The position numbers and the translations under genes are program-made. This document shows, piece by piece, positions 24,434-27,931 of a stretch of DNA of 33,224 nucleotides. Source of the stretch: Ignavibacteriota bacterium (GTDB lineage Bacteria > Bacteroidota > Ignavibacteria > Kapaibacteriales > UBA2268). The DNA is taken from the NCBI GenBank assembly GCA_024636855.1, contig JAGXGG010000078.1, forward strand, positions 1-33,224, written 5' to 3'. The notes under the pieces are model-generated. The model ran no database searches, was not told the DNA's origin, and was given only the letters and a program-made list of their open reading frames with translations. Position 1 is the stretch's first letter, and the number at the start of each line of letters is the position of its first letter.

Positions 24434-26104
24434 TTAATCTGTTGTTACTTGTTTTGGCGCCTCTAATATAGGCGGTTTTGCTTGTGATTTTTTCTTCTTT
24501 TGTACTTCTATTTTAGAAACTAATATATCTGGTGAAGATGCAGATACTGGAACTCCACCTGACTCAGCACCACATATTCCGTTGAATACACCTACTCTCT
24601 TTGAAGTAGCTAAAATATTGCTAAAAGTAGATAGGGGAGTACCAATCAAATCGACCCCTCTAACTAATTCATTTGCTCTTCCGTCTGCATATATTTTGTA
24701 TACAACTAAAGGCAAAACATTAAAAGCATTTGGTACAGTTCTACCAGTGAAAGTGAATCCTCCTTGTACTGTTTTGAAGTACAATCCAAACTCTTTTTCT
24801 TGTTTTTTACATTCTTCTCTAAGTAGTTCTATTAATTCTTGATCATCAACTTTGTTACTACTTTCTACAATTAAGTTTGATTGTCTCGATACTGCATTGT
24901 AACCAGCTTGTTTACGCCCGTGTCCATTAGAATGATCAAACCCTTCAATTGGAGATCTAGCCATCAAAAAGCTTCTAAATATACCATCATCGACAGAAAC
25001 TACTTTTTCAGATTTTACACCTTGATCATCAAACTTATAAAAACCAGAAAGTTCAGTTCCATTTCTTTCTTTAATAGTAGGGTCAAATACAACATCTATA
25101 AAGTCAGGCAATATAGACTCACCTACAGATTTTTTAAATGTCTGACTTGATGAAGGGTCCTTTTCTCTATGCCCTTCAACTCTATGACCAAAAATCTCAT
25201 GGAAAAATACTCCAGAGGCTTCACCAGAAAGTATAGCTGGACCAGAGTAAGTATCCATCAAAGGGGCTTCTCTTAGTTCATTAAGTAATGCGATTATACT
25301 AAGAATGTCAGACTCTATTTTCCCCAAAGGTGGTAAGGATTCTGGTGTAAAAGCAAAATATGATTCATATAAAGGTAAACTCATACCGTCTGTTGCTTTT
25401 GTTTTAGCATAAACGAAAACTCTAATTGACGATTCATCAAATTTAAGTTGGCTACCCTCAGAGTTTACAAAATATTTAGTTTTGTTTTCTAATAGGAAGG
25501 AAACCGAGCCATCATATATCAAAGGATCTGAATTGAATAGATTAGATAATTGCTTTACGTAGCTAACCCATTTAGCCCTATCAATTTTTAGTTTATTTAC
25601 TGATTCACTAAAATTAACATGCTTTTCTTTAGAAAAATCAGCTGATTTATCTTCTTGTTCTACTTTTACAGCAGCATTTGATTTAGCTTTTTCGAAAGTT
25701 TCGATTGCTTCTTTATAGACTTTATCGGTAGAGTACCATATTTTTCGTTTAATCGCTTGAGCATTATTATCAAGGGGAAGAAACTCGAAACCACTACCGC
25801 CACCGAAGTTAAATGAACTTCCTCTAATTATATGAGTATTGTCAAATTTATAATCACCAACCCTAAGGTCAATATCTAATATACGTTGACTTATACTATC
25901 GTTACTAATCAAATTACCAAACGATGCATTAATTGAGATTTTCTCTATATCGGTGATATTATAAGAAATATAATACGGGGGAGTGCTTTCTTTCTGAAGT
26001 TCACTAAAGTTTCGTTTAAGTTCTGTACTTGCAATATCTAAAATAGATTCAGATTTACTTACAGTAAACGAAATAAATAATATTGCGATTGCTATTTTAT
26101 ACAT
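24434..26104 (-). CDS. tldD: Exported TldD-family zinc metallopeptidase
   Basis: A 556-aa TldD-type peptidase. The metal site HEIFGH (His302, Glu303, His307) stands in GEASGVFFHEIFGHRVEGHR, and Cys511 in ICGAESGGVPVS matches the third zinc ligand of E. coli TldD. The start MYKIAIAILFISFTVSKSES is a signal peptide, so the enzyme should act outside the cytoplasm, unlike classical TldD. The C-terminus has a basic/proline tail (KKKKSQAKPP). Start chosen at ATG 26104, overlapping the gpmA stop by eight bases; in-frame TTG 26113 and GTG 26110 are alternatives. TldD/TldE pairs degrade unfolded peptides or process RiPP precursors; no precursor gene is visible here. Confidence 0.88.
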   Translation of the reverse strand: MYKIAIAILFISFTVSKSESILDIASTELKRNFSELQKESTPPYYISYNITDIEKISINASFGNLISNDSISQRILDIDLRVGDYKFDNTHIIRGSSFNFGGGSGFEFLPLDNNAQAIKRKIWYSTDKVYKEAIETFEKAKSNAAVKVEQEDKSADFSKEKHVNFSESVNKLKIDRAKWVSYVKQLSNLFNSDPLIYDGSVSFLLENKTKYFVNSEGSQLKFDESSIRVFVYAKTKATDGMSLPLYESYFAFTPESLPPLGKIESDILSIIALLNELREAPLMDTYSGPAILSGEASGVFFHEIFGHRVEGHREKDPSSSQTFKKSVGESILPDFIDVVFDPTIKERNGTELSGFYKFDDQGVKSEKVVSVDDGIFRSFLMARSPIEGFDHSNGHGRKQAGYNAVSRQSNLIVESSNKVDDQELIELLREECKKQEKEFGLYFKTVQGGFTFTGRTVPNAFNVLPLVVYKIYADGRANELVRGVDLIGTPLSTFSNILATSKRVGVFNGICGAESGGVPVSASSPDILVSKIEVQKKKKSQAKPPILEAPKQVTTD

Positions 26105-26714
26105 TTTCACCAAGGTATTTCTTTGATATTAATTTTAAAGATTCATCGAATTCATATACATACGGTTTTCCAGTCGGAATGTTTATATCTGAAATATCTT
26201 CCTTACTTACACCTTCTAAGTGCATAGTTAATGCTCTTAAAGAATTACCATGTGCAGATATTAATATATCTTTACCTTCCTTAAGTAATGGAACTATATG
26301 ACTTTCGTAATATGGAAGAACGCGGTCAAGGGTATCTTTCAAAGATTCTCCTTCTGGTGGGGCTACATCGAAGCTTCTTCTCCAAATGTGTAACTGCTCA
26401 GCACCTACTTTCTCTCCAATTTCTGCTTTATTTAGTCCTTGCAAATCTCCGTAATGACGTTCGTTAAGTGCTTCGTTAGAAATCATTTCAATATTTGTAA
26501 AACCAGCAACCTCTGAAATTATTTCGGCAGTTTTGATTGCTCTTTTTAATCCTGAAGTAAATATTTTATCGAATTTAAATCCTTTTAGAAGTTCACCTGC
26601 TTCTTCAGCTTCTTCTATTCCGAGTTCCGATAACTCTATATCTACCCATCCTGTGAATCTATTCTCTTTATTCCATTGAGATTGACCATGTCGAACACAA
26701 ACTAATTTTGACAT
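26097..26714 (-). CDS. gpmA: 2,3-bisphosphoglycerate-dependent phosphoglycerate mutase
   Basis: A glycolytic enzyme interconverting 3- and 2-phosphoglycerate through a phosphohistidine. The 205-aa product has the catalytic RHG at 8-10 (VRHGQSQWNKENRFTGW), ERHYGDLQGLNKAE with the catalytic Glu, RRSFDVAPPEGESL, and the second His in SAHGNSLRAL, plus IPTGKPYVYEFD. This is the short, dimeric-length GpmA typical of Bacteroidota. The 3' end overlaps the tldD start by eight bases, and the gene starts 17 bases after the uridylyltransferase fusion, so it sits inside the long operon. AAAGG lies about nine bases before the ATG. Confidence 0.95.
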   Translation of the reverse strand: MSKLVCVRHGQSQWNKENRFTGWVDIELSELGIEEAEEAGELLKGFKFDKIFTSGLKRAIKTAEIISEVAGFTNIEMISNEALNERHYGDLQGLNKAEIGEKVGAEQLHIWRRSFDVAPPEGESLKDTLDRVLPYYESHIVPLLKEGKDILISAHGNSLRALTMHLEGVSKEDISDINIPTGKPYVYEFDESLKLISKKYLGENV

Positions 26715-26731: not shown

Positions 26732-27931
26732 TTATTTCAATTTATTTATTAATTCTTTTGGAGCTTGAACTAATTCTATTAAAACGCCTTCACCTGAAAT
26801 TGGAGAGTCTTCATTACCTTTAGGATGAATAAAGCATACATTATGTCCTGATGCACCTTTTCTTATCCCCCCTGGAGTGAATCTTACTCCATTAGCTTCC
26901 AGATATTTATAAGCGGATTCTATATCATCTACCCATAATCCTATATGATTCAAAGTCGGTGTATGAACTGCCGGCTTTTTATTTATATCAATTGGTTGCA
27001 TTATATCTAATTCAATCTCAGCAATGTCTTTACCTAACTTTAATATATCTTCATTGACATTTTCAAATTCACTTTGATATTCTCCAACCTTTGGTAAACC
27101 AAATAGATTTTGCCATAATGTTGAATGTTTTGATTTGTCTTCAGAACCAATTGCTATTTGTTGAAGTCCAAGAATATTGAATACCCTGCTAGTATTTTTC
27201 AATTTCTCTTCAGCTATTTTCAAATCTTCTATCGAATTTATACCTTGTATTTCATCAATATTCGAAGTAGAAAATGCCATTACTTTATAGCCATCATTCT
27301 TGATTATTTCTACAATGTCTGTAAGATAATACTCTCCTTGTGCATTTGTATTATTAACACGTTCTAGTGCTGAGAATAATAAATTTGATTTAACTAGGTA
27401 AGTACCACTATTAATTTCATTAACTGACTTCTCTTCTTCATTAGCATCTTTTTGTTCTACTATTCGAATAAAATTATTTGATTCATCTCTTATTATTCTG
27501 CCATATCCAGTAGGATTAGGGGCAATAGCAGAGAGCACTGTCAAAGCACTTTCATTTTCTTTATGATAATTTATAAATGAATTTAGAGTATTTAACGTTA
27601 ATAAGGGAACATCTCCACAGAGAATCATAACTTCTGAATCTGAATCAATTAACTCATTACTTGTTTGATCTACTGCATGACCAGTACCTAATTGAGGTTC
27701 TTGGACTACAGTTTCGATATTCGAAAATTTATTTTCATTTAAAAATTTTTTTACTTTCTCTTTTTCATGTCCTAATATAACTACAGTTTTAAATGAATTT
27801 AATTGCTCTATTGTCTCTAGTACGTAGCTTAGGAGAGGTTTATTGTTCATAGGAACTAATACTTTTGGTAAATCAGGTACATTCATTCTAGTACCTTTTC
27901 CTGCTGCTAATATTGCTATGGTGAGTTTCAT
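26732..27931 (-). CDS. GlmU-type nucleotidyltransferase fused to a methylmalonyl-CoA-epimerase-like VOC domain
   Basis: A 399-aa two-domain protein in one unbroken frame. Residues 1-245 are the GlmU uridylyltransferase domain (UDP-GlcNAc from UTP and GlcNAc-1-P): LAAGKGTRM (8-16), LGTGHAV (81-87), CGDVPL (105-110), YGRIIRD (143-149), EINSGTYLV (172-180), QGEYYLTD (198-205). The left-handed beta-helix acetyltransferase half that normally follows is absent. Instead, residues 250-399 form a two-module VOC domain: [76 protein letters not shown]. These match methylmalonyl-CoA epimerase, with metal-ligand candidates His329 and Glu386 kept. The usual first His is Gln257/258. It heads the long envelope operon. 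Whether the second domain is active is unknown. Confidence 0.85.

Follow-up and report, generated by a model that had tools for sequence, protein, structure and literature searches.

A single gene on the reverse strand of the window (the whole 33,224-nucleotide stretch of contig sequence from an Ignavibacteriota bacterium that we analyzed) joins the uridylyltransferase domain of GlmU to a VOC domain related to methylmalonyl-CoA epimerase (MCE). Judged by sequence, the VOC domain belongs to a separate clade of epimerase-like proteins that has no name and is unfused outside the genus of the window genome. We refer to it as the QQ clade and describe its putative metal shell as Gln/Asp/His/Glu. 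The likely explanation is that two adjacent operon genes fused to yield a bifunctional enzyme, in which a GlmU uridylyltransferase is paired with a working QQ-type epimerase that would be the only epimerase of its genome. The catalytic activities of both halves and the metal ligands of the VOC half are predicted from sequence comparison.

The fusion gene occupies positions 26732–27931 and is one open frame of 399 codons followed by a stop (table 1). The genus includes three further genomes, each of which carries this 399-aa frame uninterrupted, at 82–87% identity, and both domain matches fall within it, so the joining of a GlmU N-terminal domain to a VOC domain, first proposed in a preliminary description of this DNA, is real. 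That description had also named a stop or frameshift near position 27190 as a sign of two separate genes. We found neither: codons 240–261 are uninterrupted, contain no ATG or GTG, and include a single TTG at residue 244, and the frames of the three relatives are open as well. An artefact of assembly or sequencing could be suspected of having joined two genes, given that the records of three of the four fused genomes are metagenome assemblies. However, the frame has an identical length in four separate genomes at this level of divergence and, because it is intact in all of them, an assembly error can in practice be dismissed as the source of the fusion in this genus. Both halves are under purifying selection, with dN/dS of 0.05–0.17 within the genus (computable for 11 of 12 pairs of halves, with dS mostly near saturation). 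Between the counterparts in genomes G001 and G002, dS is far lower in the VOC half (0.26; window positions 26735–27184) than in the GlmU half (1.03; 27197–27931), a contrast suggestive of recent recombination in the 3′ part.

Table 1. Positions in the window of the fusion gene, its domains, predicted site residues, and downstream neighbor.
Feature	Position	Strand	Evidence
Fusion gene, glmU with QQ-type mce, 399 aa	26732..27931	(-)	Single open frame; intact in 4/4 genomes of the genus
GlmU-type N-acetylglucosamine-1-phosphate uridylyltransferase domain, residues 4–247	27191..27922	(-)	TIGR01173, 3.4e-78; phmmer to GlmU 4aaw, 1.9e-53
VOC domain of the QQ MCE-like clade, residues 250–399	26735..27184	(-)	PF13669; predicted model; structure matches
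Gln258, position of the first metal His	27158..27160	(-)	Q in 66 and H in 1 of 67 rows; aligns with His of MCE
Glu294, aligned to Glu43 of Streptomyces coelicolor MCE	27050..27052	(-)	E in 67/67 rows
Asp309, at the position of Gln60 of S. coelicolor MCE (Gln/Glu position)	27005..27007	(-)	D in 67/67 rows
His329, putative second metal His	26945..26947	(-)	H in 67/67 rows
Glu386, putative last metal Glu	26774..26776	(-)	E in 67/67 rows
gpmA-type 2,3-bisphosphoglycerate-dependent phosphoglycerate mutase, downstream of the fusion	26097..26714	(-)	Open reading frame; counterpart in genome G003 scores 262 bits with TIGR01258 (cut-off of 82)

The N-terminal half has the same uridylyltransferase domain and motifs as bifunctional GlmU. 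Its match to TIGR01173 stops at profile position 239 of 452, and a 31-residue stretch and the N.GTY stretch align with GlmU 4aaw, in agreement with the earlier observation that the uridylyltransferase motifs are present. What differs from bifunctional GlmU is the C-terminal half: the beta-helix acetyltransferase domain is absent from the fusion, and a VOC domain, matching its family at residues 257–367 and starting at about residue 250, stands in its place. Across the order, a GlmU match was found in 119 of 123 genomes and the open frame is shorter than 350 aa in 114 of the 119; the five longer frames are those of the four genomes of the genus and of G099, a genome discussed below. The acetyltransferase half had thus already been shed, and the VOC domain is not what displaced it. 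The preliminary description had deduced that acetylation of GlcN-1-P must be done by another protein. A candidate for this role is present. A beta-helix search of the window genome, covering the separate acetyltransferase that had been predicted, located an alt_bact_glmU on contig C109 (TIGR03991, 376 bits against a cut-off of 225; alignment over residues 6–404 of 410). It is likewise a nonstandard GlmU but is a protein separate from the fusion with beta-helix repeats of its own, and going by its family name, it can supply the GlcN-1-P acetyltransferase.

The VOC half is more distant from MCE than first thought. Pfam Glyoxalase_4 (PF13669) matches residues 257–367 (the E-value of 1.9e-25 refers to the whole protein), and the MCE profile TIGR03081 matches residues 257–389 with an E-value of 1.1e-13 and a score of about 52 bits (51.8–52.7), relative to a cut-off of 114.95. 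MCE-type relatives matched in the order are 22–29% identical to the VOC half; its nearest relatives there are unfused QQ proteins from six genomes of g19 and g25, two other genera of the same family, at 57–61% identity. The claim that this half closely matches MCE was consequently dropped, given a score below the cut-off and the low identity to MCE-type relatives of its own order. The other earlier observation, a Gln at residue 258 where the first metal His is expected, was borne out and extends to the entire clade, as seen in an alignment of 67 rows (65 distinct). At this position the fusion is unlike all five solved MCE sequences that were aligned.

Other positions of the predicted site are conserved without exception in the alignment (table 1). 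According to PMC6525113, human MCE is a dimer with His50, His122, and Glu172 as metal ligands, which the paper terms strictly conserved among VOCs. In S. coelicolor MCE, Glu43 is mutated in PDB entries 6xbr and 6xbs, and Gln60 in 6xbt (from the PDB titles). Glu294 is presumably the catalytic Glu of the fusion, and His329 and Glu386 align with the second metal His and the last metal Glu of MCE. Human glyoxalase I has a Gln/Glu/His/Glu metal shell, counter to a strictly conserved His, and Gln as the first ligand therefore need not abolish metal binding. Glyoxalase I shares this first ligand with the QQ proteins but has a different reaction, and its Foldseek TM-score against the model of the VOC half is ∼0.3 compared with ∼0.7 for MCEs. 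The model of residues 245–399 has a mean pLDDT of 94, and its predicted fold is closest to MCE structures: the first 13 of 50 matches listed by VIA-align were 12 MCE structures and the unnamed protein 3oa4 (Z of 14.3–15.7), followed by a match with a Z of 13.2. In summary of this comparison, QQ-type VOC domains have in common with MCE (TIGR03081; PDB 1jc4, 6wf6, 3rmu, and 6bu2) the fold, the catalytic Glu, the second metal His, the last metal Glu, and a genomic pairing with the mutase family. They differ in that Gln replaces the first metal His and Asp occupies the Gln/Glu position, and also in a score below the cut-off and a separate clade; in the VOC half of the fusion, the last strand is preceded by seven additional residues.

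These site residues bear on the suggestion, made in the preliminary description, that the VOC half is a CoA-thioester sensor. Under that reading it would bind CoA thioesters to tune UDP-GlcNAc synthesis and would no longer be catalytic, consistent with its being joined to a sugar-nucleotide enzyme and with the loss of the first metal His. However, the same Gln is common to unfused QQ proteins encoded beside carboxylase genes, indicating that Gln258 did not arise with the fusion. Moreover, none of the 67 rows departs from the catalytic Glu or from the last two metal ligands, and the window genome has no other gene that reaches the MCE cut-off. We found no support for a sensor and regard it as highly implausible.

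The QQ clade extends well beyond the order. A scan of genome contigs yielded 273 relatives of the VOC half, the best 80 of which were retained as loci. The unfused members (loci L066–L142) are small glyoxalase-like proteins from several phyla, with Gln at the first metal position and invariant Glu, Asp, His, and Glu. A GlmU match is present at three of the 80 loci, all from the genus of the window genome. A tree with 57 relatives, labeled as Pseudomonadota, Spirochaetota, Bacteroidota, Myxococcota, Actinomycetota, and Verrucomicrobiota (in addition, one label of Thermodesulfobacteriota is doubtful and one relative is unlabeled), splits the QQ clade from canonical MCE with support of 100/100; depth and rooting are unsure, as long branches meet and the bootstrap has not settled. 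The simple reading that the VOC half descended from the mce adjacent to glmU in relatives was rejected because the VOC half is much nearer to the QQ genes of g19 and g25 and because the tree separates the two clades. A shared origin of the QQ genes of genera g1 (that of the window genome), g19, and g25 was also considered and found no support; the QQ tree and the GlmU tree both leave g1 ungrouped with the other two. One locus, L122, comes from a record titled Desulfobulbaceae (CROMO_A_116) and is the same in match position and protein as contig C36 of G100, a genome of the window order; the title is likely a naming error.

The distribution of epimerases and mutases suggests a role for the clade. 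In the order, 94 of 123 genomes have a canonical MCE that scores above the TIGR03081 cut-off, but none of the 10 QQ-type genomes does, and each of the 10 has a match to the mutase family PF01642 at 1e-214 or lower. The same pattern was found in genomes sampled from the 80 QQ loci: a canonical MCE above the cut-off in none of 46 (genomes for which completeness is not given) and a PF01642 match in all 46, with a best E-value of about 1e-212 or lower in 43 and weaker or partial matches in three. PF01642 includes other acyl-CoA mutases too, and the two sets amount to 55 distinct genomes, as L122/G454 and G100 are a single record. For the order, the association has a Fisher P of 1.3e-7, a value that overstates the evidence because lineages are not independent. 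A mutase need not be accompanied by a recognized epimerase, since an MCE above the cut-off is missing as well from 19 of the 113 genomes of the order that are not of the QQ type (three of the 19 have fragments), and most of the 19 have a mutase-family match. Four genomes of the order (G016, G026, G029, and G088) have a mutase-family match and neither a canonical nor a QQ epimerase that we could detect; their assemblies are incomplete or they have a further type of epimerase.

The gene content of the window genome is in line with this pattern. It encodes a mutase that scores 1,235 bits with PRK09426 (cut-off of 876), and a search for a separate epimerase, raised as a check in the preliminary description, returned no other gene that reaches the TIGR03081 cut-off. 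Its carboxyltransferase has, at the threshold used, a single NCBIfam match, to methylmalonyl-CoA decarboxylase and below cut-off. The QQ clade looks like a replacement for the canonical epimerase, and the VOC half of the fusion is probably the only MCE of the genome. The preliminary description had allowed for an active epimerase merely carried along; the predicted activity is kept, and what was thought to be carried along is now probably the sole epimerase, because the rest of the genome contains no gene at or above the cut-off.

Neighboring genes point in the same direction at a portion of the loci. Among the best 80 of 273, a PccA-like gene is present at 42 loci (on the same strand as the QQ gene at 39), a PccB-like gene at 36 (same strand at 35), and a MeaB-like gene at 19, with the PccB and MeaB names assigned by eye. 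NCBIfam assigns the PccA-like protein to the biotin carboxylases, a level at which acetyl-CoA and propionyl-CoA as substrates are not told apart. By our reading of the search results, 13 of 46 genomes have a mutase gene that shares the strand of the QQ gene and lies within 8 kb of it. The carboxylase context is mostly that of Burkholderiales; none of the four context genes is present at 38 of the 80 loci, some of which have short flanks, and in G035 and G027, the g19/g25 genomes that were read, the QQ gene is not beside carboxylase-type genes (by eye). That the VOC half carries out some other VOC reaction, such as that of an ethylmalonyl-CoA epimerase or an unknown lyase, would fit its score below the TIGR03081 cut-off, its long branch from canonical MCE, and its altered ligands. 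We nevertheless judge this to be rather improbable, as all 46 QQ genomes without a canonical MCE have a mutase-family match, QQ genes reside in carboxylase operons in Burkholderiales, and the top structural matches are MCEs.

The location of the fusion correlates with a gene order that is widespread in relatives. Of the 93 genomes of the order that have both genes, 83 (including G099 with its fused pair) carry the canonical mce downstream of glmU, on the same strand and at a distance of no more than 1 kb. G097 and G099 share the arrangement panD-glmU-mce-gpmA-tldD (names mostly by eye), with the phosphoglycerate mutase gene next after glmU-mce, and in G035 and G027, gpmA directly follows glmU and the QQ gene is elsewhere (by eye). 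In the genus of the window genome, gpmA and a tldD-like gene come after the fusion. The QQ epimerase is therefore fused at the position that the canonical mce has in the operon; it may have arrived there by replacing mce, or by insertion with a later loss of mce.

A second fusion appears to have formed at this position with the other epimerase clade. In G099, which is from another genus of the same family, glmU and a canonical MCE form a single 392-aa frame (contig C49; L171:2070–3248) that scores 134 bits with TIGR03081, above the cut-off. In four other genomes of its genus (G097, G098, G031, and G011), glmU and mce are separate and adjacent, and the epimerase half of G099 clusters in the tree with the separate mce of G097. 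The junction in G099 has a Met codon where mce starts in G097. There appear, then, to be two fusions that involve two epimerase clades at one operon position, the second seen in one genome, where an indel could mimic a fusion. Long open frames in G056 and G050 were considered as further cases and rejected; there are stops between the genes. The search for the same domain pair that the preliminary description had recommended thus gave the four genomes of the genus and G099, the latter with a canonical MCE in place of a QQ epimerase, and no others among the matches listed from 391 genomes of the class (E-values up to 1e-40) and 395 of the phylum (up to 1e-80). These genomes were drawn from larger groups and partly overlap, and a more diverged GlmU fusion could escape such searches. 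In open-licence literature, we found no paper on a GlmU-epimerase fusion or on the QQ clade.

The adjacency of glmU and mce throughout the order and the two fusions with different epimerase clades raise the possibility that the halves influence each other, such that flux through propionyl-CoA and methylmalonyl-CoA is coupled to the supply of UDP-GlcNAc. However, co-expression alone can yield both adjacency and fusion, and confidence in the full-length model is lowest where the halves meet (mean pLDDT of 71 for residues 241–250; pTM of 0.68). We know of no ligand that the two halves share. We think a regulatory coupling, and with it a bifunctional enzyme of this interdependent kind, unlikely.

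We favor instead a bifunctional enzyme whose halves work side by side. The N-terminal half would convert UTP and GlcNAc-1-P to UDP-GlcNAc, and a different protein, probably the alternative GlmU, would acetylate GlcN-1-P. As a member of a distinct MCE clade whose metal shell is Gln/Asp/His/Glu, the C-terminal half would interconvert the epimers of methylmalonyl-CoA between propionyl-CoA carboxylase and methylmalonyl-CoA mutase. The fusion would mainly represent fixed co-expression rather than regulation. GlmU normally trimerizes via the acetyltransferase domain. Because this domain is missing here and MCE is dimeric, the fusion may be a dimer held together by its VOC half.

Both kinds of enzyme joined in the fusion are known, and the more useful finding is the unnamed epimerase clade. 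A clade of proteins identified generically as glyoxalases, whose metal site is altered, probably supplies the epimerase that seems to be missing from genomes that have the mutase family and no recognized epimerase. The pairing of glmU with mce is unexpected and could not be predicted from the pathways, yet it is kept across the order and was apparently fused twice, which amounts to a hint of the Rosetta-stone type. A broader proposal, which we offer tentatively and consider doubtful, is that an epimerase with a Gln/Asp/His/Glu shell has replaced the canonical one in several phyla and that selection for proximity to GlmU drove two lineages of this order to fuse GlmU with epimerases of different clades, implying a link between propionyl-CoA metabolism and cell-wall precursors.
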